Below, in pieces: positions 8,327 through 32,815 of a stretch of 37,161 bases of DNA; the first letter of the stretch is position 1; the number at the start of each line of letters is the position of its first letter. Source of the stretch: Terriglobales bacterium (GTDB lineage: Bacteria > Acidobacteriota > Terriglobia > Terriglobales > Acidobacteriaceae); NCBI GenBank assembly GCA_035624455.1, contig DASPRM010000111.1:1-37161 (forward strand), given 5' to 3'. Below the pieces are notes generated by a model. It made no database searches. It worked only from the letters and a program-made list of their open reading frames with translations, and was not told the DNA's origin. The position numbers and the translations under genes are program-made.

Positions 8327-9532
8327 CTAGAAGCGGATGTTTTCGCGCAAAATCCCTATGTCTTTATCCCCGCGTCCGGAGACATTCACGATGATGATTT
8401 CGTATGGCTTCATGTTCGGGGCGCGCCGGACACATTCGGCTACGGCGTGGGCTGACTCGAGCGCCGGAATGATACCTTCGGTGCGCGCCAGCAGCTTGCA
8501 GGCCTCGAGCGCCTCGCTATCGGATGCCGATACGTATTCCGCGCGGCCCATGTCTCGTAGCCATCCATGCTCGGGGCCGATGGCCGGATAGTCCAAGCCT
8601 GCCGAAACCGAGTGCGTATTCGCGATCTGTCCGGCTTCATCCTGCAGCACGTAGGAATAAGTCCCTTGCAGAACGCCGGGCGAGCCGCCCTGAAACCGCG
8701 CGGCGTGCTGGCCGAGTTCGCTGCTTCGCCCGCCGGCTTCCACCCCCACGAGCCCGACCTGTGTCTGCGGAATGAATTCGTGAAAGATGCCGATGGCGTT
8801 CGAGCCGCCGCCGACACAGGCGAGGATCATGTCCGGCAGCCGTCCTTCTGCCTTGGTAATCTGCCAGCGTGTTTCCCTTCCGATTACGCGATGGAAGTCG
8901 CGCACCATGGTGGGATAAGGATGTGCCCCCAACACGCTGCCCAGCAGGTAATGCGTGGTTCGCACATTCGTCACCCAGTCGCGCATGGCCTCGTTGATAG
9001 CGTCTTTCAACGTGCGTGAGCCCGATTCCACGCCGCGGACTTCGGCTCCCAGCAATCGCATACGGAAGACATTCAACTCCTGGCGCCGCATGTCCTCCGT
9101 ACCCATGTAGACCACGCAGTCAAAGCCAAATAGTGCGCATACCGTTGCTGTTGCCACTCCGTGCTGACCGGCGCCGGTTTCGGCAATCACACGATGCTTG
9201 CCCATCCGCTTGACCAGCAGCGCCTGTCCCAGGCAATTGTTGATTTTGTGCGCGCCAGTGTGCAGCAGGTCTTCGCGCTTCAGATAGATTTTGGCGCCTC
9301 CAAGTTTTTCCGTGAGCCGCTCCGCAAAAAACAGCGGCGTAGGCCGTCCCGCGAATTGCCGCAGAAGCAAATCCAGTTCACGCTGGAACTCCGGATCTTG
9401 CCTGGCTTGCTCGTAGGCGCGTTCCAACTCTTCCAGGGCAGCAACCAGAGTCTCAGGCACATATCGGCCTCCGTACGGACCGAAGCGCCCTGGCTTTGCG
9501 CTGACGGATTGGCTCGGGGTTGCCGGCATCAT
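8327..9532 (-). CDS. trpB: Tryptophan synthase beta subunit
   Basis: This 401-residue PLP enzyme condenses indole with serine to give tryptophan. The start region reads [15 protein letters not shown], typical of the TrpB1 type. The PLP lysine is K96 in HTGAHKINN, the ETGAGQHG loop binds the serine carboxylate, and [10 protein letters not shown] binds the cofactor phosphate. The C-terminal SGRGDKD motif is complete. The start codon overlaps the trpF stop as TAATG, so the two are translationally coupled. A second in-frame ATG follows directly and may be used instead. Confidence 0.96.
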
Positions 9533-14171: not shown

Positions 14172-14543
14172 ATGTCGAGTGCAGCTACTAAGAGCTCGGT
14201 CAACGCCAAAGACAGCCAGCACGTTGCCCGCTATGCCGATATGTTCTCCGCCATGGGACAGGAGCCCAGGTTGCGCATCATGCAGCTACTGCTTTCTGCG
14301 CATCCCGAAGGATTGGTGGTCGGTGAGCTCCTGGCGGAACTGGATATCCCTAATTCCACTCTTTCTCATCATCTGGATAAGCTGCGCAATGAGGATCTCG
14401 TACAAGTGCGCCGCGAAGGCACATTCCTGCGCTACACCGCGAATACCGCGGCGCTGCAGGAGCTGCTGCAGTTTCTCTACGCGGAGTGCTGCACGCGCAA
14501 CCGGGCCCTAAAGCCGCGCGATATCGTGCAAATCTGCCGTTAG
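14172..14543 (+). CDS. arsR: ArsR-family As(III)-responsive repressor
   Basis: This 123-residue winged-helix repressor has the ArsR/SmtB pattern: MFSAMGQEPRLRIMQLLLSA, then the recognition helix IPNSTLSHHLDKLRNEDLV and the wing VRREGTFLRYTA. The usual metal site in the recognition helix (CxC) is absent. Instead a vicinal pair C106-C107 lies near the C-terminus, as in the Acidithiobacillus-type ArsR, where C-terminal cysteines bind As(III) or Sb(III). It precedes arsM by 8 bases and should control arsR-arsM-arsC. No ribosome site is seen before the ATG at 14172. Confidence 0.9.
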   Translation: MSSAATKSSVNAKDSQHVARYADMFSAMGQEPRLRIMQLLLSAHPEGLVVGELLAELDIPNSTLSHHLDKLRNEDLVQVRREGTFLRYTANTAALQELLQFLYAECCTRNRALKPRDIVQICR

Positions 14544-14551
14544 GAGACGAA

Positions 14552-15373
14552 ATGGAAACCAACATTAAAGAGATCGTGAAAGAGAAGTACGGTCAGGCAG
14601 CCCTTCGAGTTAAAAGCGGTGGAAGCTCTTGCTGCGGTGCCACGGCTGCTACGGATTCTTGTTGCGATCCCATCACCTCAAATCTGTATGGCGTGTCGCA
14701 AATTCAGCAGATACCGGAAGAAGCTTTGCTGGCTTCGCTGGGATGCGGCAATCCCACCGCCCTGGCTGAATTGAAACCCGGAGAGGTGGTGCTCGATCTG
14801 GGCTCCGGTGGCGGAATTGACGTGTTGCTGTCGGCCAGGAGGGTGGGACCGACCGGAAGCGCCTACGGGCTCGACATGACGGACGAGATGCTTGCACTGG
14901 CCAACGAGAACAAACGCAATGCAGGCATGACCAACGTCGAGTTCCTCAAAGGCGAGATCGAAAACATCCCCCTGCCGGACAACTCAGTGGACGTCATTAT
15001 TTCCAATTGCGTGATCAATCTTTCCGCGAACAAGGACCGCGTGTTAAGCGAGGCCTTCCGCGTGCTCAAGCCGGGAGGACGTTTTGCAGTTTCGGACGTG
15101 GTTACGCGGGGAGAGATCAATGAAGAAGTGCGTCGGAGTGTGCTGCTCTGGGTGGGATGTGTCGCAGGCGCGCTGAGTGAAGATGAATATCGCGAGAAGC
15201 TGAGGTTTGCCGGATTCGACCAGGTTTCAATTGACCCGACGCGTGTTTATCACGTGGAGGATGCGCGCGAATTCCTTGCCGCAGCCAATGTGGACGTGGA
15301 CGCCATCGCGCCCCAAGTGGATGGCAAGTTCATGAGCGCGTTCGTGCGAGCGACGAAACCGACAGCCCGTTAA
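14552..15373 (+). CDS. arsM: Arsenite S-adenosylmethionine methyltransferase
   Basis: This 273-residue enzyme methylates As(III) with SAM to mono-, di- and trimethyl arsenicals. The SAM site is [14 protein letters not shown] (about 82-95) with GLDMTDEML. Family cysteines are present: C65 (SLGCGNP), C153 (SNCVINLS) and C203 (VGCVAGALS), which bind arsenite, plus two CC pairs (C27-C28, C37-C38) in the N-terminal segment. The ATG at 14552 follows GGAG by about 5 bases; a longer frame overlapping arsR is rejected. Downstream is arsC. Volatile trimethylarsine release would give resistance. Confidence 0.94.
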
Positions 15374-15424
15374 ACCGACAGCCCTCTACTGTCCCTGGTA
15401 ATCTCGGGCCGAAAGGAAATTGAT

Positions 15425-15937
15425 ATGCGAGGACGCTACAACGTGTTGTTTCTGTGCACGGGCAATTCCGCGCGCTCGGTCATGGCCGAAGCCATCCTGA
15501 ATTTCAAAGGCCAGCCCAACTTCACTGCCTACAGCGCAGGCAGTCATCCCACGGGGATGGTGCGGAAGGAAGCGCTGCAACAACTCCAGATCGTTCGCAT
15601 ACCGGCAAGAGATCTGCACAGCAAGTCCTGGGACGAATTTGCTCAGCCCGGCTCCCCAAAGCTGGATTTCGTGTTTACGGTCTGCGACAACGCGGCTAAT
15701 GAAGTCTGCCCGGTGTGGCCAGGGCAGCCGCTGACGGCGCACTGGGGAGTTCCCGATCCTGCTGCCGTGCGCGGCTCGCCGGGGCAGATCGAGCACGCGT
15801 TCCGCGAAGCATATCTCATCCTCGACCGCAGGATCAGCCTGTTTCTATGTCTACCGCTAGACAGCCTGGACAAGCTTGCGATCAAGAAAGAGATCGACAA
15901 GATTGGCGAAACCATGGCGCCGGTCCCGCAAGAGTAG
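15425..15937 (+). CDS. arsC: Arsenate reductase, thioredoxin-coupled type
   Basis: This 170-residue protein belongs to the low-molecular-weight tyrosine-phosphatase fold. The P-loop is C11-TGNSA-R17 (CX5R) followed by SVMAEAIL. The other two redox cysteines of the pI258-type arsenate reductases are seen as C87 and C95 (TVCDNAANEVCPVWPG), and the catalytic acid is D111 in VPDPA. A relay of the three cysteines reduces As(V) to As(III) and is recycled by thioredoxin. It is a little longer than usual (about 130-145). AAAGGA lies 8 bases before the ATG. It closes the arsRMC operon. Confidence 0.9.
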   Translation: MRGRYNVLFLCTGNSARSVMAEAILNFKGQPNFTAYSAGSHPTGMVRKEALQQLQIVRIPARDLHSKSWDEFAQPGSPKLDFVFTVCDNAANEVCPVWPGQPLTAHWGVPDPAAVRGSPGQIEHAFREAYLILDRRISLFLCLPLDSLDKLAIKKEIDKIGETMAPVPQE

Positions 15938-16005: not shown

Positions 16006-16887
16006 TCATTTAGACGTTTCGAGAACGGCTCCGACGAGATCACCGAGTTGCTGTGGAGTGAACTCGTTTCCTTCGAGATTGGCAACAAGGTTCCGGTCAC
16101 GACCGATCACCGCCGTATGCAGGGAATGCACAAAGAGCCCCTCGTCCTGGACGAAATTCACGCCGAATAGATCGCAGACGCGTTGTACCTCGGCAGCAGG
16201 GCCAGTCAGAAACCGCCAGTTATCGGGATCCGCCTTCCAGATCCCCGCATACTCGCTCAAAATTTCCGGTTGGTCGTGCACCGGATCAAAGGTCACCGTC
16301 AATAGGATTAGTTCCCGGCCCATTAGATCCTTATATCGTTTTTGCAAGGCTCCAAAATTGTTCGACAGCCGATAGCAGTAATCGGGCAGTGCGCAGCGCG
16401 TATACACGAAATTCAGTGCGACAACTTTCCCCGCGAAATCGCTTAGACGAACCCGCCGCTTGTTTTGATCAGTCAACACAAAATCAGGTACCGCCTGGCC
16501 GACCGAGAGTGCAGGCGAACCCGGTCCCCCCAGCGCCTCATCAAGCGTCTTGAGCCTGCGCGACTTCGAGGGCTCACGTTCAGCGCTCGTATATCCCACT
16601 ATGCGGACGTCTTCCGCATGAGAAGCCTCTTTTGTGACAACTAGCGTGAACTGTATTTGTGCACCGCTGGCAAGACCGTCCAGAGACTTGGGATCGGCAA
16701 CCTTGAACGACATGACCATCGCGTCCATGTAGCCGGGGATTTCCTGACAGGAAACCAGCATCTTCTGGTGCGCACGATCTACGCGGAGGACCAGTCCCCT
16801 TACGAGATAACGTTGTTGTCCGTACGAAGCTGCTGGACTTAGCAAAAGTTGAACTACCAGAGCCAGCAGGAGCAATCCCCGATTCAT
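16006..16887 (-). CDS. SCO1/SenC-like copper protein with CusF-like N-domain
   Basis: This 293-residue exported protein begins with a Sec signal (MNRGLLLLALVVQLLLS). Residues 26-100 resemble the copper-binding CusF/CopC-like domain (GYMDAMVMSFKV, with Met 58 and 60). Residues 125-293 form a SCO1/SenC thioredoxin-like domain: VPDFVLTDQNKRRVRLSDFAGKVV, then C165 and C171 (TRCALPDYC) and H254 (FVHSLHT), the copper ligands of SCO proteins. The cysteines are spaced CX5C rather than the usual CX3C. SCO proteins deliver copper to cytochrome oxidase or act as thiol reductases. It begins 20 bases after the ASPIC/UnbV gene, as the last gene of that operon. Confidence 0.88.
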   Translation of the reverse strand: MNRGLLLLALVVQLLLSPAASYGQQRYLVRGLVLRVDRAHQKMLVSCQEIPGYMDAMVMSFKVADPKSLDGLASGAQIQFTLVVTKEASHAEDVRIVGYTSAEREPSKSRRLKTLDEALGGPGSPALSVGQAVPDFVLTDQNKRRVRLSDFAGKVVALNFVYTRCALPDYCYRLSNNFGALQKRYKDLMGRELILLTVTFDPVHDQPEILSEYAGIWKADPDNWRFLTGPAAEVQRVCDLFGVNFVQDEGLFVHSLHTAVIGRDRNLVANLEGNEFTPQQLGDLVGAVLETSK

Positions 16888-16907
16888 AGAATTCTCAACA
16901 CCCGATT

Positions 16908-19622
16908 CTATTTCTTTTCCGCCCTCTTCGTCGGAGTCCCCTCAGAAGCCGGCGCCGACTTTGCGCCCAGGTGGAAGGCTGCCCGTTCGAGGCGAGTGAA
17001 ATCCTTGGCACCCTCTCGGATTTCGAGAAACTGATTCTTGTGCACGTCGTTAAAAACTTGATGAGTTTGGCTGGCCGGCCACCAGATCTCCAAATTCACA
17101 ATGCGAGCATCCTTGCCCAAACCGATGTGCTGTTGTAGCGGTGATGCACCAAACGATCCCCCGCTGCCAACTGTGCGATAGATGGAGCGCTGCGCCTGGC
17201 GCTGATTCTGGACCGTCACCTTGATGCGAGCTCCAACTGCCGCGCGATTACTCTTCACGCCGACCAGTTTCAGCGTAATCCAGTCATTTCCATTCCCGGG
17301 ATTTTCGAATAGCCGGATTGCGTGGCGGTCCCCCGGCACCGCGCCGCCGATTTCGGCCACTATGTCTTCATCGCCGTCATTATCCAGATCGGCAAACGCA
17401 ACGCCGTGTCCCTTGTGTAACTCGCCCGTACCAGAAGAGGCCGTGACATCCATGAACTTCTTGCCGCCCTGATTGTGAAACAAAACATTGGGCAGGATAT
17501 CTCCGTAAGGCGGGGTCCCCGTCCCCAGGTAGAAATCGAGAAATCCATCATTGTCGATATCACCAAAATTCGAACCCATGGGATTGAACACTCGATTTAA
17601 CCCCACTTCCGCGGTCACATCTCGGAATGTCCCATTGTGCTCATTGTGATAGAGCTTGAGCGTTTCCACGTTATGCGGAAGTCCAAGTAGGCTGCGTAGA
17701 TTCTCTTCCGGAGACATGTAGTAGCTGGTTACGAAAAGGTCGGGCCACCCATCGTTGTCATAATCGAAAAACCACGTAGCAAAGCTCATCCAGGGCTGCT
17801 GCTGCACACCTGCCTGTGCCGCCACTTCGGTGAAGCTGCGGTCGTGATTGTTGTGGTAAAGGAACTTATTTCCTCCCAGATTCGAGACGTAGAAGTCCAT
17901 GTATCCGTCGTTATCGTAGTCGGCTGCAATTACGCCCTTGGTGAACGCCACCCGGTCGACTCCAGCCGAATGCGAAATATCTTCAAAGGTACCATCTCCC
18001 TTGTTGCGATAAAGCCGGCTGGGCCCCTGCTCGTTTCCAATGAATAGGTCCAGAAATCCGTCGTTGTCTATATCTGCCCACACGGCGGTTTGCGATGCCA
18101 TCGGCTCCGCCAGCCCGGCTTCGCGAGTGACATCCGTGAACGTGCCATCGCAGTTGTTGCGCAGCAGCGAAGGGCGCATGGGAAACTGCCAACCGCCACG
18201 CAGAACCAAGATGTCCATGCAGCCATCATTGTTGTAATCTGCCTGGATGATGTTCAGACCGCCTAACTGATCGCCCAGTCCAGCTTGCAGCGCACGGTCT
18301 GTAAATGTTCCGTCCCCGTTGTTATGAAAAAAGTGAAGCGGCTCACAAGGATCGAAGCTTGAGGTAACCACATCGAGCAGGCCATCATTATCAAAGTCGT
18401 CGACGATCACGCCACCCGCTTCGGAGAATGAATTGAGGCCTGCAGACGGCGCAATATCGGTAAAGCGAACCACGTTCTCCTCCGACTCGAATACGGATGG
18501 TGCGATCAGGTAGTTCGCTGGAACTCCCTCGGGATATTTTCCCAATGTCATGTATGCCAGGTTCAGCAGCCACCGCACTTCCTGAGCATCCGGTTTCTGC
18601 TCCAGATATTTCGAAAAGTACTCAACTGCTTTTTCGGAATCTGCTTTTTGCGTAAATACAAACGGCTTGACTGGCGGGAACAGACACCGATCGCCGGGTT
18701 GGCGATAGACATTATTTTCCATCTCGGACTTATGCATATACGCAGTTCCGAGAACTTCCAGCATCTCCGGCACCATCTCGGGAGCCTGCGCCTGCGCTAG
18801 CTTATACGCCTCAAGCCAATGTTGGATCGCGGGATCCATTTCTCCCTGATACGCCAGGAGTTGCGCTAAAACAAAGTGCACCTGTCCTACCTGCTCTGGC
18901 TTGGTCGAGACATAGCTATCCGGATCATTCGGATCCAGGAGTTGTTCTAAGTGGCCCACGGCCCGCCTCAGCGAGTACTGCCTCATCTGGCAGATTGATC
19001 GCAAGTCACGATCCCAGCCGGGAGGCTTCGGCATGTGCCGGAACGCAATCTCGACTTCCACGGCTCCGGAGACATCAGGGGGATATGCAATTTTGCCGCG
19101 CCCGGCGAGCGCAAGCGTGGCGGTCGGCATCATGCCTTGGCCGCTGCCGGAGGGGAGACTCGCTCCCGTTGTGGGAGGCACATTCGGCGTCGAACGTTGC
19201 GAATTGTTACCGCTCGGGGCCCCCGAAAAAGTTCTTAGGATTGCGTAACCAGTCGGGATTTTTACCGGGCCGGCGAATTTTCCGGGACCGACAGCTCGTA
19301 AAGCCTCCTGCAACTCGTAGCGCAGAGTGCTCAGGTCAACCCGTCCCAGAGATCCACCCGCATCGGAGCTTGCGTCAATTGATTTCTCCCGCGCCAGTGT
19401 CGCAAAATCTTCTCCGCTACGCAGACGCTGCAGTATTCCCTCCGCTTCGGTCTGCGAACTCACTACAATAATTTCCAACTCAGATGACGCCGGCAGAGTC
19501 TGCTGATTTTGAGCCCCCACTACCGAAGTCAAGCCGAACAGCAAAAGCAAGAAGAGCGTGCGATTCCAAAGCAAGCCCTGCCAAGCCGATTGTCGCAAGC
19601 TTCGGATTCCGCCTACTTCCAT
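16908..19622 (-). CDS. Parvulin-TPR-FG-GAP-ASPIC/UnbV fusion protein
   Basis: This 904-residue exported protein has an unusual domain order. Residues 21-38 are a signal segment. Residues about 48-133 look like a PpiC-type parvulin peptidyl-prolyl isomerase (SGEDFATLAREKSIDASSDA, GGSLGRVDLS, PVKIPTGYAILR). A TPR-like helical region follows (about 190-370). From about 400 to 750 there are seven FG-GAP/VCBS blades with calcium motifs such as DFDNDG, DIDNDG and DYDNDG. A C-terminal ASPIC/UnbV domain (about 770-870, RAAVGARIKVTVQNQ ... RTVGSGGSFGASP) ends it, as in CRTAC1-type proteins. The ATG at 19622 is chosen. It lies between a TPR protein and a SCO1 protein in one operon. Confidence 0.85.
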   Translation of the reverse strand: MEVGGIRSLRQSAWQGLLWNRTLFLLLLFGLTSVVGAQNQQTLPASSELEIIVVSSQTEAEGILQRLRSGEDFATLAREKSIDASSDAGGSLGRVDLSTLRYELQEALRAVGPGKFAGPVKIPTGYAILRTFSGAPSGNNSQRSTPNVPPTTGASLPSGSGQGMMPTATLALAGRGKIAYPPDVSGAVEVEIAFRHMPKPPGWDRDLRSICQMRQYSLRRAVGHLEQLLDPNDPDSYVSTKPEQVGQVHFVLAQLLAYQGEMDPAIQHWLEAYKLAQAQAPEMVPEMLEVLGTAYMHKSEMENNVYRQPGDRCLFPPVKPFVFTQKADSEKAVEYFSKYLEQKPDAQEVRWLLNLAYMTLGKYPEGVPANYLIAPSVFESEENVVRFTDIAPSAGLNSFSEAGGVIVDDFDNDGLLDVVTSSFDPCEPLHFFHNNGDGTFTDRALQAGLGDQLGGLNIIQADYNNDGCMDILVLRGGWQFPMRPSLLRNNCDGTFTDVTREAGLAEPMASQTAVWADIDNDGFLDLFIGNEQGPSRLYRNKGDGTFEDISHSAGVDRVAFTKGVIAADYDNDGYMDFYVSNLGGNKFLYHNNHDRSFTEVAAQAGVQQQPWMSFATWFFDYDNDGWPDLFVTSYYMSPEENLRSLLGLPHNVETLKLYHNEHNGTFRDVTAEVGLNRVFNPMGSNFGDIDNDGFLDFYLGTGTPPYGDILPNVLFHNQGGKKFMDVTASSGTGELHKGHGVAFADLDNDGDEDIVAEIGGAVPGDRHAIRLFENPGNGNDWITLKLVGVKSNRAAVGARIKVTVQNQRQAQRSIYRTVGSGGSFGASPLQQHIGLGKDARIVNLEIWWPASQTHQVFNDVHKNQFLEIREGAKDFTRLERAAFHLGAKSAPASEGTPTKRAEKK

Positions 19623-19665
19623 TTGCCTGTGCCTTCTACAATCCACGCTAACCAAGCTTCTGTGC

Positions 19666-21225
19666 TCACGGTGGCGTCAGCTGTTTCCTTGCATTCTTGG
19701 CGGCCTGGTGTTCGGCTTCTTGAAGTTCGCGGTAACGCTCCATGTGGAGCTGGGCCTCTTGGGAGCGTCCCAATTTGCTGAGGGCCAGGCCGATCTCGTA
19801 TTCGGTCTTGGCGAAACTCGGATCAGCCGCAGCCGAACGCTGGAGTACGCTGAGCGCCTTCTCCAGTTCGCCCGACTCCAGATACAAGGTGCCCAGGCTG
19901 AACAGCGCTTTGGCGTGCGCAGGCCGTATTTCGACGGCGCGCTCCTGATGCTGGACGGCTTGCCGCGTGTTGCCCTCCTTGGCGTAAACCAATCCCAGCT
20001 CATATTCGGCTTCGGCGAGGCTCGGATCCAATTGCAGCGCGCGCTCTAGGGCGTTTCGTGCCTCTGGATAACGCAGTTGGCTCAGGTAGGAAATCCCTAG
20101 TCCCAGGTATGCTTTCGGCTCATTGGGTCGCACCCTGACATAGTCTTCCAGAAGCTGGGTCGCAGCGCGGTACTCTTCCTGCTGCAGCATCACGGCGGCG
20201 GCCAGATACTTATCATCAGGATTCTGCGGGCTTTTCTTGATGAGATCGGAAGCAGCTTCCTTGGCAATCAGGTTGCGGCCCGTGGCCATTGCCTCCACTA
20301 CCACGTGACGAAGCACGGGCAGCGAGTCAGGATCCAGAGCGCGTGCCCGCTGCAGGGCGGCTAAAGATTCGTCATGCTTATTTTGAGCGGCGTAGGTTTC
20401 TGCCATCGCGAGCAGGCTTGGAATTGTCTTGGGATCGAGTGCAAGTGACTGGCGATAAGCCGCCAGCGCGGGTCCGAATTCCTGCTTAGCTTTCAGTGCT
20501 TCCCCTTTCAGATAGTAGAAGCGAGCTGGAAGACGCCTGGATGCCGGCGCCGCCAGGTTGAGTGCTTTCAGCGCATCATCGGGCCGATGAGCAGCGAGAA
20601 AGACGTCAGCCAGGTCCATGGCTATAGGGGGAGAGTTTCTGGCCCGATCGATCAGGGCTGCTGCTTCTGAGGCGCGACCCACACCAAGTAAGCTGGCGGC
20701 CTTGACTGGAACCGCGGAGCCGGGGAGGCGGTCGCGAGGAATGGCTTCGATCGTGGAAAGCGCATCGGCAAAATTGCCTCTGCCCAGATAAAGCCGGGCG
20801 AGTTCCACTCTCAGATCCGGATCTTGGGGAGCGAGCTTCTCTGCCTGCTTGTACTGCTCGACGGCCTCGTCCAGCTTGTCTTGTGCGAGCAGCGCACTGC
20901 CCAGATAGCGGTATGCAAGCAGCGATTTGGGATCAAGCTCCAGCACGCGCTTGAACAGCGACTCGGCCTCGGCATAGCGCTGCTGGCGCCCGCGTATAAT
21001 GCCTAGCAGCGTCAGAGCGTCAGTCTGGCTGGGGTTAGAGGAGAGCATGGACCAGACCGACTTTTCGGCCTGAGAAAGATCGTTTCGTTCTAAGGCGGTC
21101 CGTGCTGCAGCCAACTGAGGGTTACTAGCGGATTGCTGTGCCGCGACAGACAGGTCGAGAAAAAGGAGAAGAATCGCGAGCAAAGCCTTGCAGCACTGGC
21201 CGATGTTAGTTTGTTTGCGGGACAT
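19666..21225 (-). CDS. Exported TPR-repeat protein
   Basis: This 519-residue protein has an N-terminal hydrophobic segment (CCKALLAILLLFLDLSVAAQ), a probable signal peptide, then tandem tetratricopeptide repeats over nearly its whole length, e.g. LLGIIRGRQQRYAEAESLFK and YRYLGSALLAQDKLDEAVEQ. Such arrays are scaffolds for protein contacts. The start is ATG 21225 (MSRKQTNI), with GAGG 5 bases upstream, inside the end of the preceding TPR gene (20-base overlap), which indicates coupling. The next gene starts 43 bases downstream. The client protein is unknown; its position suggests a role with the parvulin/CRTAC1 protein. Confidence 0.85.
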   Translation of the reverse strand: MSRKQTNIGQCCKALLAILLLFLDLSVAAQQSASNPQLAAARTALERNDLSQAEKSVWSMLSSNPSQTDALTLLGIIRGRQQRYAEAESLFKRVLELDPKSLLAYRYLGSALLAQDKLDEAVEQYKQAEKLAPQDPDLRVELARLYLGRGNFADALSTIEAIPRDRLPGSAVPVKAASLLGVGRASEAAALIDRARNSPPIAMDLADVFLAAHRPDDALKALNLAAPASRRLPARFYYLKGEALKAKQEFGPALAAYRQSLALDPKTIPSLLAMAETYAAQNKHDESLAALQRARALDPDSLPVLRHVVVEAMATGRNLIAKEAASDLIKKSPQNPDDKYLAAAVMLQQEEYRAATQLLEDYVRVRPNEPKAYLGLGISYLSQLRYPEARNALERALQLDPSLAEAEYELGLVYAKEGNTRQAVQHQERAVEIRPAHAKALFSLGTLYLESGELEKALSVLQRSAAADPSFAKTEYEIGLALSKLGRSQEAQLHMERYRELQEAEHQAAKNARKQLTPP

Positions 21226-23659
21226 CGCGCCCTCGATGGCGATTCTTGAGGGCCTGATAGAGCTTGATTTCACGCTCGGCATCTTCGCTGCGAGCATCGC
21301 GCCGGTAGGCCATCGCCAACTGATAATGGATGTAGTCGCTGTCGGGACTGAGCCTGCTTCCCGTCTCTAGGCTGGAGATCGCCGACTTAGCATCCCCCCG
21401 CTCCAGTTGCAGCTTGCCTAATTCGTAATAGGCGTCAGCATATTTCGGATCCTGGCGAATAACTTCCTGGAGAAGGACGGCTGCCTCGTCCTTTTTCTGA
21501 TCCTGAACCAGCGCAAAGGCCAGGTGGTACTTGGTGCTGGCATCACGAGGATTGAGCTTGAGCGCGGTTCGCAATTCCTGCACAGCCTCGGCGGGGTTTC
21601 CCTGGCGTATCAAAGCCAGCCCAGCCAAAAAATGCGTTTGTGCCTGGTTGGGATCGAGGGCAATTGAGCGGTGATATTCCGCCAAGGCATTGTCATCTTC
21701 TCTCTGATCGGCAAATGCTTGCCCGAGCAGGGAGTGAATCTCCGCCGAGTCGGGATTGGCTTGGGCAATGGTCTTCAGGCGACGGATTCCTTCCGCGTAC
21801 TCGCCCGTCTTCACCAGCGAAAACGCGTAAGCGTAGGCTAGGCCGGGATCGTCCGCGACCTGGGTCTCTACGGGTTTCAGCGTCTCCAGTACCTTGGGAT
21901 AGCTCTGCACCATAAAGAAGCAGAGGCCCAGCACGCTGCGGATCCGCAGGTCGTCGGGATGACCCGCCAGTTGCCGACTCAAGGGAGCAATCGCCTGATC
22001 GTACTGCTTGGCGTAGAACGCGGCCATGCCCCAATTTCGGTCGAGGGCGTTGAGAGAGGGATTCCATTCTCCCGCTTTGCGGAAATATTCCAGCGCCTCG
22101 GCGTATTGCTTCTGCCCGGCCAATAACACACCCAGATTGTTATAGGAGTCCGCGATCGCCGGCCCGATCTGCTCTATGAAAGCTTTGGCCTGCTTCTGCT
22201 CTTCCGGCGATGCGGACGCAGCTGCGCCGGCGGAGGCAGCGCCTTTCTTTGCCGGGGAGAAGCTGGCTACATCAGTAAGCTTCTTGGTGTTCGCACCGGC
22301 TGGAGTATTTCCGCTGGCAGAATTGGTTACAGAATCGGGACGATTCAAGCGGTTACGAAGCTCTTTGGAGAGCCCCAGTTCCTTTTGGCCTTCGGCCTGG
22401 CGCCCCGTGCGCAAGAGAATACGTCCCAGCACGTAGTGTGCGCGGTTGATCTGGTATTCGTTGCGAGAGACGTCTGTGGTTAGAGCAATAGCCTTGCGCA
22501 TAATAGCTTCGGCCTCGCTGTCGCGGCCTGCATCCTCGTAAAGCTTTCCAAGGTAAATTAGAGGATCGGGATTCTGCGGGTCGAGAGCCGCAGCACGCAG
22601 CAGTTCGGCTTCCGCCGTCTTCGAATCGCGCTGTTTGATCGCGATATAGCCGAGCAGATAGTGAGAGCGGGCATCATTGGGATTGAGTTTTACCTCGGCT
22701 TGCAAGGCGGGAACAGCCTCGGGAAAGCCTGCTTCTCCATCACGCATGAGGTGGGCAAGGGCGAGAAAGTAATGCGCCTGCGGCGCCTTGGGATCGATGG
22801 CAACTGCCTTTTTGAACTCCAGAATGGCATTGTCGAGCGCTTCCCACTCGCCTTCCCCGTAGGCGCGACCGAACATAATGTGCAGTGGAGCTGTGTCCCC
22901 CAGACCGGTCTGCATGTCGTCGAACAGCAGCCGCGTGTGGGTCATATCGTTCAGCTTGATATAGGTGATCCCCAACAGATAGCCCACATCGAAGGTCGGG
23001 GTAGCAACAACGGCAGTTTCCAGGTGCTGCCGTGCGCCCTGGTAATTCCCCTGGTCGAACAGGACACTGCCCAGAACAGCATGAGCTTTGGCGTCATCGG
23101 GAGAAGCTTGGAGGATTTTCTCCAGCTGCGATTGCGCTTCGCTGAGCTTGCCCTGCTGGGCCAGCATGGAAGCGAAGTCGAGACGGATGGCAGAGGAATC
23201 GGGTGCCAGCCGCAACGCCTCTTCGAACAGCGGCTGCGCCTTGTCCGATTGGTTCAGATGCAGGTATGCGTTGGCAGAGGCCCGAAGCGCATCCACGAGG
23301 AAGGCGCGAAATTCGGCGGCGGCATGCTCCTGATCGCCACTGAGCTGAAAGGTCCTGGCGGCGTCGTAGTGTTGTTGCAGGCGCTCCTGCGCCGAAGGCT
23401 CAGGTTTCGTGGGCGCGGAAGGCTTGTTCGGCGATGCTGTCTTGCGGCTTGGGCTCGATTTCGCGCCCGGGGTTCTTGGTGTCTGGGTCTGCGCGACGAC
23501 CGTGCTTAAAAGGAGCGAGGCTGCGAGAGCAGCGCCAGCGCAGGCGCCGAAACGTTCGTGGATGCGGGAAAAGAGTGCAGTCGACGAATCCTGCTTACAG
23601 ACCCTGGTCACCGGAAAAGCATACCCGAAAAACAGAAAAGGGTGAGACCCGACGCGCAT
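21206..23659 (-). CDS. Large exported TPR-repeat protein
   Basis: This 817-residue protein starts with a hydrophobic segment (about 37-57, GAALAASLLLSTVVAQTQ), probably a signal peptide with a long N-region, then a Pro/Ser/Lys-rich linker and many TPRs (e.g. LYEDAGRDSEAEAIMRKAI, AYYELGKLQLERGDAKSAI). The ATG at 23659 has GAGG 10 bases upstream but lies in the loop of the terminator that ends the preceding receptor gene. A GTG at 23611 (VTRVCKQD) is an alternative start with no ribosome site. It heads the four-gene run TPR, TPR, parvulin/ASPIC, SCO1. The function is not known. Confidence 0.83.
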   Translation of the reverse strand: MRVGSHPFLFFGYAFPVTRVCKQDSSTALFSRIHERFGACAGAALAASLLLSTVVAQTQTPRTPGAKSSPSRKTASPNKPSAPTKPEPSAQERLQQHYDAARTFQLSGDQEHAAAEFRAFLVDALRASANAYLHLNQSDKAQPLFEEALRLAPDSSAIRLDFASMLAQQGKLSEAQSQLEKILQASPDDAKAHAVLGSVLFDQGNYQGARQHLETAVVATPTFDVGYLLGITYIKLNDMTHTRLLFDDMQTGLGDTAPLHIMFGRAYGEGEWEALDNAILEFKKAVAIDPKAPQAHYFLALAHLMRDGEAGFPEAVPALQAEVKLNPNDARSHYLLGYIAIKQRDSKTAEAELLRAAALDPQNPDPLIYLGKLYEDAGRDSEAEAIMRKAIALTTDVSRNEYQINRAHYVLGRILLRTGRQAEGQKELGLSKELRNRLNRPDSVTNSASGNTPAGANTKKLTDVASFSPAKKGAASAGAAASASPEEQKQAKAFIEQIGPAIADSYNNLGVLLAGQKQYAEALEYFRKAGEWNPSLNALDRNWGMAAFYAKQYDQAIAPLSRQLAGHPDDLRIRSVLGLCFFMVQSYPKVLETLKPVETQVADDPGLAYAYAFSLVKTGEYAEGIRRLKTIAQANPDSAEIHSLLGQAFADQREDDNALAEYHRSIALDPNQAQTHFLAGLALIRQGNPAEAVQELRTALKLNPRDASTKYHLAFALVQDQKKDEAAVLLQEVIRQDPKYADAYYELGKLQLERGDAKSAISSLETGSRLSPDSDYIHYQLAMAYRRDARSEDAEREIKLYQALKNRHRGRDVPQTN

Positions 23660-23671
23660 CAAGTCTCACCC
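23628..23671 (-). terminator. Intrinsic terminator after the first Oar-like gene
   Basis: On the minus strand GGGTGAGAC pairs perfectly with GTCTCACCC (23663-23671 with 23640-23648; 14-base loop), followed by TTTTCTGTTTTT. It lies 20 bases past the receptor's stop codon. The loop contains the start codon, and one arm overlaps the ribosome site, of the next gene. Confidence 0.75.
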
Positions 23672-23690
23672 TCGTCTGGCAAGGATATGC

Positions 23691-26600
23691 TCAGAAGTTG
23701 ATCTTCAGAGCATATTGGATTTCACGCGGTCCTTTGTCCACCGTCGCCTGGCCAAAGGTCGGGTTCACCGAAACCGAGCAAATCGTATTGTTGGTGGCAC
23801 ACTTCGTGGCTCCGCTATCGTAAAGCGTAGTCACGTTCGTCGTGCTCTGGTAGTTACCCAGGAATTGCACCTTGTTGAACAGGTTGAAGAACTCCATACG
23901 GAACTGCATGGTGACCCGTTCTTTCACTTTGAAGTTCTTGTAGAGGGAGAAGTCAGTGTTGGCGATGCCGGGTGAGAGGCAGTCACCGATGCTGCCGTCG
24001 CCAAAGGTGCCGAGCTGGTAGCCAATCAATGTGTAGCGATTGGGATTCAACCACTGGTATTTGGGAGACCCCGACGGAGCACGGCAACCCTGACCGGGCA
24101 CAACGTTGGGACGGGTGTTGTTTTGACCGGCACCCGTGCCCGAGATGCCGCCGGGAGCGCCGGTGACCGAGTCATTGGCAAACACGGTCATCGAGCTACC
24201 GCTGGCGTACGAAAGGATTGCCGCCATTTCCCAGCCTCCAAGGACACCGCGCACCGCGGCATTGTGCCCGACCAGAGTGGGCGTGTCATATACGATGTTC
24301 GACACGAAAACGTGGGGGCGGTTGATCTGGCTAGGCCCATAGTTCAGGTGAGGATTGGTAGGATCCAGTAGCGCGCTGCTCTGATTAATATTGCCGCTAT
24401 TGGTAAGGTCCGTGTTGGTCAGAGACCTGGACCAGGTGTAGGCGAATTGCGCGTCCAGAGCCTTCAAACGCGTGCGGAACAACGCCTGCAGCGAGTGGTA
24501 ATTGGAATTGCCGCCCCAGAAGGCATCGTTTATCCGGCCCCAATTTCCTGCACCAAACGGACGAAGGGCGGCGGAGTTAGTCAGAGCGAATGCTAACTGG
24601 TCCGCTGGCGCTAGGCGATTGGCATCCGTGTAGGTCAGCAGGTGAATACCACGATTACCTACATAGGCCACTTCCATCTTGCTATCGTGGAATACCTCTC
24701 GTTCCAATGTGAGGTTCCACTGCCAGGTGTTGGGCAGGATGTCGCTAGTATCCTGATCCCATGCAGGGGTCCCGGAAGCACTCAACGAGCCTGGTGCGGG
24801 AGGCGTAGAAAAGGCGCGATTGTAACCTACCGCCAGGTTAAAGGGAGGATTGGTGGCCAACTGCAAGTTGTTGTTCAAGCGTTCGCGCTGGAAGAACTGC
24901 CCGACACCGGCGCGGATCGCCATCTTGCCATCGCCATAGGGATCCCAGGCAATACCGACACGCGGCGCGATCGCATGATTGTTGTTCTCCTTAAGTGCGC
25001 GGTTAGGTCCGTCGGCCCCCCCCTTGAACCCTGCCGCCGCGCAGGCGCTGCTGCCGGGCGGCAAGAGCAATCCGTTACAAGGGTCGCCACCAAGGGCCGG
25101 GTTGTACGCAGCAGGGGAGAAAGTGGCGATCTTGTCGGGACCGCTATACGGGAAACGCAGGAAAGACCAGCGGAAGCCATAGTCCAGCGTCAAGTTTCGA
25201 CGGAACTTCCAGGTATCGCCGAAGTAAGGTTCAATGTCGTGCCATCGGATCTGGGAGTACGGGTTGGTCGAACTCTCTCCGCCGCCCCACTGCACTTGAT
25301 TCCACAACATATTGAAGGCGCCGTTTCCGGTGTCGTTCGAGGCTGCGCCCCAGTAAAAGGCGTTCTCCTGGGACTCGTTGTTAACCATCTCATTTTTCTG
25401 GTTGTTGCTGACCAGCACGCCAACTTTGAAAGTGTGGTTGCCCAGAACCTTGGAGAAATCATCCTTCCAGATCATGAGCTGCTCGTTGTTGTGCCAAGGC
25501 GCCTGCGTCCACAGATTGGAGCCAGTCGCGCAATCGGGACCGCATCCACCCCAGAATCCCGGATAACCAATCTTCGAGCCCTGCAGTTTGTCGGAGAGCG
25601 GGAAAAACGTGGGATTATCCGCAATGATGGTGTCGTTCAATCCCGGATTGGTTCCCGAGCGGGTGGCATTGATGCGGTTGGAAGCGTAAGAGAACTGGAA
25701 GTCGTTCACTGCCGTGGTGCCTAGCAGCTTCGTCACCTTAACCGTCCCCTGATAACCGGGCTGCTTCCAGCTGCTCTCAATGGAGGGGAATTGGTCGTCG
25801 CCCCACAGTCCTTGCGTATTCGGAAAGGGGTTTTCCCAGTGATCCTGGGTATAGCGCCCCATGATGCTCCAGGTTTTCCCTATTTTGTAATCACCGCGGA
25901 TGTTTTCTTCTCGCCAATAAACCGGGGATCCGACCGACTCCGCCCAGTTATTGCAGTTCACCGGATTGGGAACGTTCGGATCTGGCAGCATCGAGAGATA
26001 TTCCTGGCCGCCCTTGGACAGCCCGCCAGTCGGCACCTGGTTGATGTTGGTCAGGACGATGCCGCCAACCTTGGGGGCGGGATCGCATGCCGCCCCGGCG
26101 TTGCTTTTATCGGTTCGCAAGTTGCTAAAGTCGCCGCCCTTCTCTGCCGCCGTGGGCACGTCTCCGACGCGTGCCTTGCCACGAATTTCCCTGTTCCACT
26201 CCTGCGACCAGAAGAAGAACAGCTTGTCTTTCACGATCGGGCCGCCGATGTTGTAGCCAAAGTCGTTGCGGCGCAGCTTGTCCTTGGGAATCTGGTTCAG
26301 GCCGTTGAAGTAGTCCTTGGCGTTGAGAACATCGTTGCGGCCGAAATAGAAGACGCCTCCGTGGAACTGATTCGTTCCCCCCTTGGTGATGATGTTAACG
26401 ATAGCGCCGCTGGCCTGCCCATACTCCGGGCCATAGCTGTTGCGTAGGATCTTGAACTCCTGGATGGCATCGATCGACGGATAGACCAGGATGGTGCGGT
26501 TCGATCCGACATCATTATTGTTGACACCATCCACGTTGAACATGTTTGCGGTGCTGGAGTTGCCGCTTACAGAGAAGTCAACACCGGCCTCCAGACCCTT

Positions 26601-27212
26601 GTGCTTGGAATCGAAATTAGCTTGTGGCGAGACGCCGGGCATCAACTGGGTTAACTGCACGAAGCTGCGGCCGTTGAGGGGCAATTCACGGACCTCATTG
26701 CCTTCGACCACATTGCCGACCGCGCCGGATGCCGTCTCCACGGCAACGGTATTGGCCTCCACTGTAACCTGCTCGCTAACCGCGCCCACTTCCAGCGTGG
26801 CATTCACGGTTGCGATGCTGGAGACGTGCACCTCAACACTCTTGCTGACAAATTCCTTGAAGTTGGTCTGCTGGATGCGGACGTCGTAAATGCCTGCGGG
26901 CAGGTCAGGGAAACTATATTCCCCGGAAGTACTCGTGGAGGTAGTGCGCGTGGCGCTGGTGCCGGTATTGGTCACGGTCACCGTGGCGCCTCCGATGGCG
27001 GCACCCGATTTATCGACCACCGCTCCTTCAATGGTACCGGTAAATTTCTGCGCCAACGCGGGCGTCGCAGCAAGCAACAGCAGAAGGATCCCAGCCAGGC
27101 AGGCGTGTAGCATAAATCGGAAATCCGGCCGATGGTGTTGTAGCTGAGGGGAGCGACGGCTCGCCCAGACAGAATGCGAAGGCAGACTGCGAGAGTCAGT
27201 GTTGCAGTTCAT
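23691..27212 (-). CDS. Oar-like TonB-dependent outer-membrane receptor
   Basis: This 1173-residue protein has a signal peptide after a long N-region (core ACLAGILLLLLAATPALA, cut near residue 54). Residues about 56-140 form a carboxypeptidase-regulatory-like beta domain (GTIEGAVVDKSGAAIGGATV). A plug domain follows (about 150-290: ELPLNGRSFVQLTQLMPGV, FNVDGVNNNDVGS, ASGAIVNIITKGGTNQFHGG). The remainder is a large beta barrel ending in phenylalanine (YALKINF), as outer-membrane proteins do. Acidobacteria carry many such receptors, probably for uptake of large organic ligands. The ATG at 27212 has AGGAG at 6 bases. A terminator separates it from the TPR operon. Confidence 0.92.
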   Translation of the reverse strand: MNCNTDSRSLPSHSVWASRRSPQLQHHRPDFRFMLHACLAGILLLLLAATPALAQKFTGTIEGAVVDKSGAAIGGATVTVTNTGTSATRTTSTSTSGEYSFPDLPAGIYDVRIQQTNFKEFVSKSVEVHVSSIATVNATLEVGAVSEQVTVEANTVAVETASGAVGNVVEGNEVRELPLNGRSFVQLTQLMPGVSPQANFDSKHKGLEAGVDFSVSGNSSTANMFNVDGVNNNDVGSNRTILVYPSIDAIQEFKILRNSYGPEYGQASGAIVNIITKGGTNQFHGGVFYFGRNDVLNAKDYFNGLNQIPKDKLRRNDFGYNIGGPIVKDKLFFFWSQEWNREIRGKARVGDVPTAAEKGGDFSNLRTDKSNAGAACDPAPKVGGIVLTNINQVPTGGLSKGGQEYLSMLPDPNVPNPVNCNNWAESVGSPVYWREENIRGDYKIGKTWSIMGRYTQDHWENPFPNTQGLWGDDQFPSIESSWKQPGYQGTVKVTKLLGTTAVNDFQFSYASNRINATRSGTNPGLNDTIIADNPTFFPLSDKLQGSKIGYPGFWGGCGPDCATGSNLWTQAPWHNNEQLMIWKDDFSKVLGNHTFKVGVLVSNNQKNEMVNNESQENAFYWGAASNDTGNGAFNMLWNQVQWGGGESSTNPYSQIRWHDIEPYFGDTWKFRRNLTLDYGFRWSFLRFPYSGPDKIATFSPAAYNPALGGDPCNGLLLPPGSSACAAAGFKGGADGPNRALKENNNHAIAPRVGIAWDPYGDGKMAIRAGVGQFFQRERLNNNLQLATNPPFNLAVGYNRAFSTPPAPGSLSASGTPAWDQDTSDILPNTWQWNLTLEREVFHDSKMEVAYVGNRGIHLLTYTDANRLAPADQLAFALTNSAALRPFGAGNWGRINDAFWGGNSNYHSLQALFRTRLKALDAQFAYTWSRSLTNTDLTNSGNINQSSALLDPTNPHLNYGPSQINRPHVFVSNIVYDTPTLVGHNAAVRGVLGGWEMAAILSYASGSSMTVFANDSVTGAPGGISGTGAGQNNTRPNVVPGQGCRAPSGSPKYQWLNPNRYTLIGYQLGTFGDGSIGDCLSPGIANTDFSLYKNFKVKERVTMQFRMEFFNLFNKVQFLGNYQSTTNVTTLYDSGATKCATNNTICSVSVNPTFGQATVDKGPREIQYALKINF

Positions 27213-27685: not shown

Positions 27686-29224
27686 ATGCGGACTATGGGA
27701 CAGCCAGACTACGGGGTTGTGAGGAGAGCAGGCTGCATGGTCTTGCCTGCCATGCTCATCGTCCTCTTCGGATGTGGTTCAGGAAGTCCGCCAGATTCGG
27801 GCTCCTCCACGAGTCCGCCACCGCCAGCGCAAGCGTCACAGCTGCTAACACGCTTAAGCACCGATACTTTTTTCGACAATTCCGGCCAACATGCTACCGA
27901 GGTTGAACCCGATTTGGCTGCTTTTGGGTCCACGCTGGTCGCCACTTTTCAGATTGGACGCTTCTTCGGAGGTGGTTCCACCGACATCGGATTTGCGACC
28001 TCGACGAATGGAGGAGTGAGTTGGACCAACGGCTCCTTGAGTGGAATCACTGTCTTTGCCGGAGGCGCTTACAACGCGGTCAGCGATCCCGCTGTTGCTT
28101 ACGATCGCGCGCATGCGGTGTGGCTGATCAATTCCCTGGCGATCGTTCAAACCAGCACCGTAGTCGTCAGCCGTTCACCCGACGGCCTCCATTGGGGAAT
28201 TCCGATTGTCATCAGTAACTCTCCTGATGCCGACAAGAATTGGATCGCGTGCGATAACGGCCAGGCCAGCCCGTTCTTTGGCCATTGCTACGTGGAATGG
28301 GACGACCCCAGCCAGAAGGGACTGATCTGGATGAGCACGTCAACCGATGGCGGCCTCACCTGGAGTCCCCCGGCCAATACGCGGGATATGGCGACTGGCG
28401 TGGGTGGCCAGCCCGTCGTGCAGCCCAACGGCACAGTGATTGTGCCCATCCAGGATGGCTCGGGCACGCACGTGATTGCGTTTTCGTCGCAGGATGGAGG
28501 CGCCAACTGGAGTTCGGCGGCCACCGTGGCCGACATCGGCGATCATCTGGTCGCAGGCGGTCTTCGCACCGACGCCCTGCCCTCCGCAACGGTCGATGCA
28601 GTGGGAGAGATCTACGTGGTCTGGCACGACTGCCGTTTTCGGACGGGGTGTTCGTCCAATGACGTAGTGCTGAGCAAGTCGTCGGATGGAATCACCTGGA
28701 CGGCTCCGGTGCGGATTCCGCTGGATGACGTGAGCAGCACGGTCGATCACTTCATTCCAGCCATCGCTTCCGACCCGGCCACCAGCGGAGCTTCGGCGCA
28801 TCTGGCAATCTTGTACTACTACTATCCGACCGCGGCCTGCGATGAGACTAGTTGTGCGCTCAATGTGGGCTACACGAATTCGCGGGATGGCGGCAACACC
28901 TGGAGTGCACCCAGCTTGCTAGTCGGACCGATGTCGATCGACTGGCTGGCAAATACCAAGACCGGGCGAATGGTGGGTGATTATTTTGCGGTTGCGTACT
29001 CTAACAGCAATGCATTCCCAGTATTTACCGTGGCCCGCGCGAACAACGGAACCCAATTCGACGAGGCAATCTACACCACGAGTGAACCGCTGGTGCAAGC
29101 TGCCGTGGGAGTGAGTTCACAGAGCGAGCAGCCCCGCGGCGAAGTGAAATCTGACCATGGTCCACGGCGGTTTTATGATCTGGAACACCGGTATCCGGTG
29201 AAACCCAAAATTCAGCCGAACTGA
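27686..29224 (+). CDS. BNR/sialidase-fold lipoprotein
   Basis: This 512-residue protein starts with a lipoprotein signal (VVRRAGCMVLPAMLIVLFGC; lipobox cysteine 30) and a Ser/Pro-rich linker. The body is a six-bladed sialidase-like propeller with at least five Asp-box (S-x-D-G-x-x-W) motifs: STNGGVSWT, STDGGLTWS, SQDGGANWS, SSDGITWT and SRDGGNTWS. These are structural, and the arginine triad of true sialidases is not clear, so an enzyme activity is uncertain. Start choice is open: ATG 27686 has no ribosome site, GTG 27719 gives an ideal short signal, and ATG 27737 has GAGGAG but no positive N-region. It faces away from the receptor gene and may bind glycan or protein at the cell surface. Confidence 0.8.
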   Translation: MRTMGQPDYGVVRRAGCMVLPAMLIVLFGCGSGSPPDSGSSTSPPPPAQASQLLTRLSTDTFFDNSGQHATEVEPDLAAFGSTLVATFQIGRFFGGGSTDIGFATSTNGGVSWTNGSLSGITVFAGGAYNAVSDPAVAYDRAHAVWLINSLAIVQTSTVVVSRSPDGLHWGIPIVISNSPDADKNWIACDNGQASPFFGHCYVEWDDPSQKGLIWMSTSTDGGLTWSPPANTRDMATGVGGQPVVQPNGTVIVPIQDGSGTHVIAFSSQDGGANWSSAATVADIGDHLVAGGLRTDALPSATVDAVGEIYVVWHDCRFRTGCSSNDVVLSKSSDGITWTAPVRIPLDDVSSTVDHFIPAIASDPATSGASAHLAILYYYYPTAACDETSCALNVGYTNSRDGGNTWSAPSLLVGPMSIDWLANTKTGRMVGDYFAVAYSNSNAFPVFTVARANNGTQFDEAIYTTSEPLVQAAVGVSSQSEQPRGEVKSDHGPRRFYDLEHRYPVKPKIQPN

Positions 29225-32448: not shown

Positions 32449-32515
32449 GAATCCTCCCAAATGAATTAGGACTGCAGAACGAATCAAACACCCAGACAGG
32501 TGATTCTTCTGAGAC

Positions 32516-32815
32516 CTAAACCGCAGGAGGCGGACGGACGCTGAGCGCAAACGCAATGAGGCGCTGCCTGGCGGAAACCGGCTCCACGCGCGGGCTGGGG
32601 ATGGGAACAAAATACGCCTGCGCGAGGACGAAACTACTTTCCGGAGAAGCGGAATGGGCGACGATGCAGACGGTACATTTCGAGTCCGCAGCCGTCCCGG
32701 AGTGGTGGTGCACAACAACCGCCGCTGCAGACCATAAGGTCAGTACTAAGCACAGCAGGGCTATGGCTTTGGCAGTCGATCGCAACGAACTTACCCACCC
32801 AAACGAGTGTTCCAA
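32516..32815 (-). CDS. Small membrane protein with HHH and CxxC motifs
   Basis: I do not recognise a named family. The protein (99 residues from TTG 32815) has one membrane segment (AKAIALLCLVLTLWSAAAVV), then three histidines (HHH, 36-38) and C47-x2-C50-x3-H54 (KCTVCIVAH), a likely metal site on the outer side of the membrane. The C-terminus is Pro-rich. The frame is open further upstream to 32911 but without ATG and with unlikely composition; the start is therefore uncertain. It precedes the second receptor gene on the same strand, which suggests a shared role, perhaps metal-related uptake. DUF2946-like proteins have similar His/Cys spacing, but I cannot confirm a match. Confidence 0.65.
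   Translation of the reverse strand: MEHSFGWVSSLRSTAKAIALLCLVLTLWSAAAVVVHHHSGTAADSKCTVCIVAHSASPESSFVLAQAYFVPIPSPRVEPVSARQRLIAFALSVRPPPAV

Follow-up and report, generated by a model that had tools for sequence, protein, structure and literature searches.

The arrangement in print that comes closest to the locus described here is mtoX-SCO1/senC-mauG, in which the gene of a Cu-dependent methanethiol oxidase is followed, in many bacteria, by a SCO1/SenC gene whose product was proposed to act in copper maturation (PMC5739008). The sco operon of Streptomyces encodes Sco, a PCuAC-like protein and a third predicted cuproprotein; the Sco protein carries a CXXXC motif and was tied to oxidase and development (PMC3603459). 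CusF of E. coli binds copper by one histidine and two methionines plus a tryptophan (PMC7558416). Here, a stretch of 37,161 nucleotides from an acidobacterial genome (Terriglobales bacterium, contig DASPRM010000111.1) was analyzed, which is called the window throughout the paper. It holds the gene of a PpiC-TPR-CRTAC1 protein and, directly behind it, the gene of a CusF-SCO fusion protein, and these two genes were found to form a pair that is conserved in many acidobacteria from soil.

As in the mtoX operon, an enzyme or partner gene is followed by a SCO gene. However, the partner in the window is a PpiC-TPR-CRTAC1 propeller and not SBP56, and the SCO protein has in addition a CusF domain and a C-x5-C spacing. 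MtoX itself is a propeller. The Streptomyces operon likewise contains a SCO gene within a small unidirectional copper operon; unlike the window it has the CXXXC motif, and no CRTAC1 gene is named in its description. Compared to E. coli CusF, the CusF part of the window's protein is fused to SCO and offers an extra methionine (M54), and the place of the E. coli histidine is taken by cysteine in most CRTAC1-linked members, as judged from a ligand alignment by eye. Mammalian CRTAC1 (9etn) shares the propeller and the C-terminal domain, while the bacterial protein adds the parvulin-like and TPR regions and the SCO partner. A Pfam match of MauG or SBP56 type was found for none of the scanned window genes, no whole-genome search having been aimed at either, and MauG was not among the 25 commonest of the 118 neighbor families listed. 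The absence of a Pfam or Foldseek match was never taken as proof. The parts of the pair are already known, and within the known kind "cuproprotein with its own SCO" it is set apart by the pairing and the exclusive CusF-SCO clade. The pair was described in no title or abstract start among the listed matches of the open PMC literature.

A conserved gene pair with its own CusF-SCO clade

The features of the pair are given below with the evidence on which they rest. Residues of the CRTAC1 protein are counted from TTG 19655, and its structure model is numbered 12 lower.

16006..16887, minus strand: CusF-SCO fusion of 293 amino acids, member of the CRTAC1-linked clade; the N terminus resembles a signal of non-lipoprotein type (Pfam, tree, model, Foldseek)
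16627..16809, minus strand: CusF domain with the candidate Cu(I) ligands C47, M54, M57 and M59 (Pfam and alignment)
16375..16395, minus strand: C165-x5-C171 motif in the SCO domain, third ligand H254 (alignment)
16908..19622, minus strand: PpiC-TPR-CRTAC1 protein, start ATG 19622, in-frame TTG at 19655 (Pfam, model, structure comparison)
19230..19493, minus strand: parvulin-like domain, probably non-catalytic (Pfam and comparison with 2m08)
18531..18998, minus strand: TPR-like helical region including H308, codon 18732-18734 (model and column comparison)
17025..18479, minus strand: FG-GAP beta-propeller and UnbV/ASPIC domain, the latter at 17025-17240 (Pfam, structure comparison)

Of 399 genomes in the source's class, 95 matched the CRTAC1 alignment strongly, and 162 did so with the CusF-SCO alignment. 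Two sets of loci were used for the comparison. Named loci were the best 80 of 412 candidates, lean to close relatives, and 79 of them were counted; a further 44 whole-genome loci were chosen from genome-search matches, and many of these share their contig with a named locus. Adjacency counts rest on tblastn matches, as maps of the longest open reading frames sometimes took an antisense frame over SCO (L116, L121-L124), and the broken SCO gene of L051/L153 was entered as a partial match. The SCO gene lay directly downstream and on the same strand in 32 of 45 loci whose CRTAC1 gene is long and of PpiC type or related to it, the window included, and in 55 of the 79 named loci. The remaining 24 named loci comprised 5 with SCO elsewhere in the locus, 5 whose contig ends too soon and 14 lacking SCO in the analyzed stretch. 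Outside the source's class, linked-type SCO was detected in 4 of the 396 genomes of the phylum search, and CRTAC1 was directly upstream of it in all 3 testable loci, one of which (L241) has only the last part of CRTAC1 on its contig. Judged by its length, the contig of G666 from this search is apparently that of L189, and it was counted in both sets. All named records are labelled Acidobacteriota save L164 and L210, which carry Pseudomonadota labels and are probably mislabelled, since both fall among acidobacterial rows in both trees. Named species with the pair are Terracidiphilus gabretensis, Acidicapsa dinghuensis and Occallatibacter savannae.

Two loci deserve a separate remark. Beside a shorter CRTAC1 paralogue, L065 (genome G031) carries at 8506-8925 a truncated remnant of a linked-type SCO gene (51% identity over 92 amino acids), as if the pair had been lost. 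The CRTAC1 proteins of L175 and L177 are very similar, with short branches; L175 has SCO and L177 has none on its 4.9-kb contig, where the gene next to CRTAC1 encodes a TPR protein and H308 is retained. L177 is perhaps a case of recent SCO loss.

Exclusivity was addressed from the side of the SCO gene. As a systematic control, one row in four (rows 2-118) among the listed CusF-SCO matches was taken regardless of its neighbors (n = 30, 10 of them overlapping loci of the earlier sets). All 3 linked-type genes in this sample, with 43-55% identity to the window protein, lay directly behind CRTAC1, and none of the 27 stand-alone-type genes (28-36% identity) had a CRTAC1 match above 60 bits in the fetched stretch. 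Conversely, 60 of 60 SCO matches in the named loci, which were chosen by CRTAC1, were of the linked type (42-69% identity). A first control had given 0 of 24 stand-alone CusF-SCO genes near CRTAC1, a biased count, as these genes were chosen partly for having no known strong CRTAC1 match. In a tree of 88 CusF-SCO rows, the 24 stand-alone proteins were separated from 64 others with a split support of 100/100, and 58 of the 64 were scored as linked. Among the six non-scored rows, the SCO gene of L155 follows a second CRTAC1 copy, those of L179, L180 and L205 lie on the other strand at a distance of 0.9-2.1 kb from CRTAC1, that of L169 is likewise on the other strand but upstream, and the fetched stretch of L235 gave no CRTAC1 match. 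A lipobox-like cysteine was seen by eye in all 24 stand-alone proteins; a strict regular expression found it in 14 of the 24 and in 10 of 61 linked proteins. With the pair both conserved and exclusive, there is strong support for a link of the CRTAC1 protein to the copper/thiol protein.

The two proteins and a proposed copper maturation

The copper/thiol protein of the sequence-only reading was found to carry a SCO1-SenC domain (PF02630, residues 134-259, 58.5 bits versus a cutoff of 22.8), while its N-terminal CusF barrel domain (PF11604, CusF_Ec, residues 27-87, 41.6 bits versus a cutoff of 27) had been overlooked. The structure model reached a predicted local distance difference test score (pLDDT) of 88.9, is strand-rich in segment 25-96, and gave Sco structures as top Foldseek matches, so that a SCO1-SenC domain of thioredoxin-like fold is present. 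The two cysteines and the histidine of Sco1 are kept; the CxxxC motif of classic Sco1 is replaced by C-x5-C, and the protein is a SCO variant and not a classic Sco1. C165, C171 and H254 were found in 64 of 64 rows of the linked clade and in 24 of 24 stand-alone rows. As both groups have it, C-x5-C is a mark of the whole CusF-SCO group and not of the pair alone. In the CusF domain of the linked clade, methionine was conserved at positions 54 (60/64), 57 (60/64) and 59 (61/64). Position 47 is cysteine in 41 and histidine in 9 of the 64 rows, and histidine in 16 of the 24 stand-alone rows.

The SCO fold and its set of two cysteines and one histidine would also suit a protein serving cytochrome c oxidase as classic Sco1 does, its place behind CRTAC1 being a historical accident. 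However, the source genome has a separate CxxxC SCO in its ACIII-cox cluster (G000:C74; L236; neighbors named by eye), and SCO genes linked to CRTAC1 occur in several families and at some loci beyond the source's class. The oxidase can therefore probably do without the window's SCO. With this separate SCO present and no linkage of the window's gene to cox genes, the oxidase role was rejected, and we regard it as extremely improbable. The linked CusF-SCO subfamily appears to be devoted to something else.

The CRTAC1 protein consists, by Pfam, of Rotamase, FG-GAP and UnbV/ASPIC parts. Its model (pLDDT 86.5) was superimposed on murine CRTAC1 (9etn) with a Z score of 40.5 over 457 aligned residues; Pfam and structure comparison agree on an FG-GAP propeller with a C-terminal UnbV/ASPIC domain, that is, on a CRTAC1 protein. 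The source genome contains 8 UnbV_ASPIC matches. The prolyl isomerase-like domain noticed before was borne out as a parvulin fold; a catalytic function was not. Two histidines of parvulins are active-site residues, and where the PpiC-type parvulin 2m08 has them, the window's protein has I62 and A138. Position 62 is Ile or Leu and position 138 is Ala in 5 of 5 aligned rows. With both histidines missing, prolyl isomerase activity is unlikely from the sequence, and the domain is probably a binding domain and not an enzyme.

When columns of the CRTAC1 alignment were compared between proteins with and without SCO, H308 in the TPR region was the most SCO-discriminating of 182 columns that were conserved to at least 95% in proteins with SCO linked or near. 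This histidine was present in 62 of 62 such proteins and in 6 of 17 without SCO. It is replaced by Gln in L199, which lies within an SCO-bearing clade, and in L193 and L212. Arg or Phe takes its place in a basal clade without SCO, in which L202 retains His. The pattern is suggestive.

The cysteines of the CRTAC1 protein bear on a different role for the SCO partner, that of a thiol-disulfide oxidoreductase which forms or corrects CRTAC1 disulfides and delivers no copper. C222 and C437 were lost together in 9 of 9 rows lacking either, as is expected for a disulfide, C479 and C502 often change together, and reductase activity has been described for some bacterial Sco proteins (PMC3603459). However, C222, C437 and C502 are gone in L175, L190, L191 and L206, yet a SCO with C165, C171 and H254 stays, and the SCO also stays in rows without C324 such as L161, L163, L164, L166 and L170. 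None of the checked CRTAC1 cysteines was present in all SCO-linked proteins, and a disulfide role would leave the CusF barrel and the distal histidine unexplained. Since no checked cysteine tracks SCO, disulfide formation was rejected as the sole explanation, and an oxidoreductase without copper delivery is unlikely.

By analogy with mtoX-SCO1/senC-mauG, our best, still tentative explanation is that the CusF-SCO protein is a dedicated Cu(I)/redox maturation factor for its CRTAC1 partner. The functional unit would consist of two genes, one for a secreted PpiC-TPR-CRTAC1 protein and one for the CusF-SCO fusion directly behind it. The CusF barrel would hold Cu(I) on its methionines and, in most members, a cysteine, and the SCO domain with its two cysteines and one histidine would pass Cu(I), or reducing power together with Cu(I), to the CRTAC1 partner. 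Alternatively, CusF-SCO may keep the site reduced during Cu(I) delivery. Docking or loading might take place via the TPR region around H308, and mature CRTAC1 would be a copper-carrying propeller in the periplasm or at the surface. This explanation builds on the adjacency, the exclusivity, the separate clade, the conserved ligands, the H308 pattern and the separate cox SCO described above; copper binding, the direction of transfer and the role of CRTAC1 as target are inferred.

Several observations weigh against this explanation. A CRTAC1 gene without SCO in the analyzed stretch was found in 14 of the 79 named loci, and six of the 17 SCO-less proteins kept H308. Many of the SCO-less proteins that lack H308 belong to one basal clade, and therefore the correlation between H308 and SCO comprises few independent events. 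The CusF methionines are changed in 4 of 63 covering rows; L052 and L141 have lost all three and yet retain the pair, and copper on the CusF barrel may thus not be essential everywhere. Finally, L183, L195 and L210 retain SCO although none of them has H747, H778, M273, M312 or C324, and a full copper site on CRTAC1 can therefore not be drawn.

The same two proteins might instead act as a complex, scaffolded by CRTAC1, which senses Cu(I) or delivers it on behalf of a third protein whose gene lies elsewhere. The parvulin-like, TPR and propeller parts are of scaffold type, and in other bacteria a gene annotated as CRTAC1 family adjoins hydrazine-synthase-like genes (PMC12758564). A screen of 98 neighbor proteins, with matches to 118 families in all, revealed no third gene that stood out; the commonest were other CRTAC1 proteins (10) and TPR proteins (at most 8). 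The screen covered 98 of 105 chosen proteins, and as the 7 omitted were mostly long and some receptor-like, its count of 3 barrels in 98 is too low. It bears on a linked third protein only. We consider such a complex improbable, about as much as the oxidoreductase.

Copper maturation of the CRTAC1 partner can be extended to a wider claim: the acidobacterial PpiC-TPR-CRTAC1 proteins would be a new class of secreted propeller cuproproteins, each with its own C-x5-C CusF-SCO, and H308 would be indispensable to them for ligation or docking. This extension is rather unlikely as it stands. If true, it would provide the first chemical function for bacterial CRTAC1 proteins, none of which has a tested function among the listed matches of the open PMC literature. 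The conserved, exclusive pairing with a copper chaperone makes the idea specific, and it is testable, since the pair occurs in species-named strains.

The receptor, the TPR genes and the hairpin between them

Upstream of the pair, the window contains the following features.

19666..21225, minus strand: TPR-B, a neighbor outside the conserved pair (Pfam TPR repeats and genome comparison)
21206..23659, minus strand: TPR-A, start codon uncertain (Pfam TPR repeats and genome comparison)
23638..23673, minus strand: conserved terminator-like hairpin between receptor and TPR-A (hairpin scan, folding, comparison)
23691..27212, minus strand: Oar-like TonB-dependent receptor with CarboxypepD_reg and OMP_b-brl_4 (Pfam)

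The sequence-only reading had seen TPR-A, TPR-B, CRTAC1 and SCO as four exported proteins that may form one periplasmic assembly line. Their frames were indeed found on the minus strand with small spacings: the end of TPR-A (21206) and the ATG of TPR-B (21225) overlap by 20 bases, 43 bases separate the end of TPR-B (19666) from the ATG of CRTAC1 (19622), and 20 bases the end of CRTAC1 (16908) from the start of SCO (16887). Export of the four proteins is putative, as judged from their hydrophobic N termini. The order TPR-TPR-CRTAC1-SCO, whose conservation across Acidobacteriota that reading had named as its own test, was not conserved. A locus was testable if it had at least 5 kb of upstream sequence, which held for 34 of the 44 loci from other whole genomes and for 53 of the 79 named ones. 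The order was found in 0 of the 34 and in 0 of the 53, and it was absent from all 16 whole genomes that bear the CRTAC1-SCO pair. The sole co-directional TPR-like match upstream was weak (about 64 bits, L108/L145, which are one contig). The four-gene operon was therefore rejected and the TPR genes are not part of the conserved unit; what stood of the suggested functional link is the pair, and a copper-dependent assembly would concern these two genes.

The TPR genes keep other company. In genome G027, the receptor, TPR-A (59%) and TPR-B (53%) are ordered as in the window, but run opposite to the nearby CRTAC1-SCO pair; no other of the 16 pair-bearing genomes has a close TPR-B match. Weaker matches to TPR-B and TPR-A adjoin each other, TPR-B first, in G166 and G415, where the pair lies on a different contig. 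TPR-A accompanies the receptor in the relatives L146, L147 and L150, and both genes have the pair as neighbor in G027, L147 and L150 as they do in the window. Because the four-gene order was unseen in testable loci and the trio of G027 is opposite to the pair, the window is a junction of two modules that are separate elsewhere, receptor/TPR-A/TPR-B and CRTAC1-SCO. The former may be a second, loosely attached module of uptake type. In L147 and L150 (0-9.9 kb), the genes of the receptor, TPR-A and a shorter CRTAC1 paralogue are closely packed and point away from CRTAC1-SCO. A LacI-like regulator gene separates the two sets, and the stretch closes with a ROK-like fragment (by eye). SCO-less tandem CRTAC1 copies lie near receptor and TPR genes in L130-L132, with a DUF1501-like and PSD1-like pair farther on (by eye).

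The receptor adjoins TPR-A, as noticed before, but a strong hairpin intervenes. It runs from 23673 to 23638 with 16 pairs, is followed by T-rich sequence, and folds with a z score of -5.3 against shuffles. Terminator-like sites were not in excess in the scan overall (14 found, 15.3 expected), and this hairpin alone stands out. The assumed start of TPR-A (ATG 23659) falls within it and the true start is therefore uncertain. The same hairpin is present at the receptor/TPR-A border of L049 (1358-1389), L147 (4769-4786) and L150 (4889-4907). In the alignment of the four sequences, 48 of 48 cells were paired and two pairs were changed on both sides; with only four sequences, two compensatory pairs were also reached in 84 of 500 shuffles. 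The conserved core, GACTTGA...TCRGGTC, was detected in 6 of 243 loci, namely these three and L237, L238 and L243, all three of the latter being the window's own copy. Rfam gave no match at the hairpin and one sub-threshold match elsewhere. A dispersed repeat was rejected, since the hairpin is unique in the source genome. The hairpin resembles a site where the receptor transcript is terminated or attenuated, and possibly sets the expression of receptor and TPR genes apart.

The neighborhood of receptor and pair could also mean that all genes belong to a single locus for the uptake of a glycan or a copper complex, whose cargo is processed by SCO and CRTAC1. In the four loci named above the pair has receptor and TPR-A as neighbors, a LacI-like regulator and a ROK-like fragment occur in L147 and L150, and a BNR_2 sialidase-like gene is present in the window. 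A receptor-like match above 90 bits was found in 23 of the 79 named loci, but the genomes in question may have many receptors of this type. On the other hand, 56 of the 79 had no such receptor match, matches above 120 bits were obtained for TPR-A in 5 and for TPR-B in none, many of these loci being short, and the conserved hairpin parts the receptor from TPR-A. A single uptake locus is thus very unlikely.

The BNR_2 sialidase-like gene (27686-29224, plus strand) is divergent from the receptor and, together with a second CarboxypepD_reg receptor at 29725-32718 (minus strand), hints at a glycan-use region. On the other side, a small arsenic cluster at 14172-15937 (plus strand) is convergent with the SCO gene; it comprises an ArsR-like regulator, an S-adenosylmethionine methyltransferase (ArsM by eye) and a low-molecular-weight phosphatase/arsenate-reductase-like gene (ArsC by eye).

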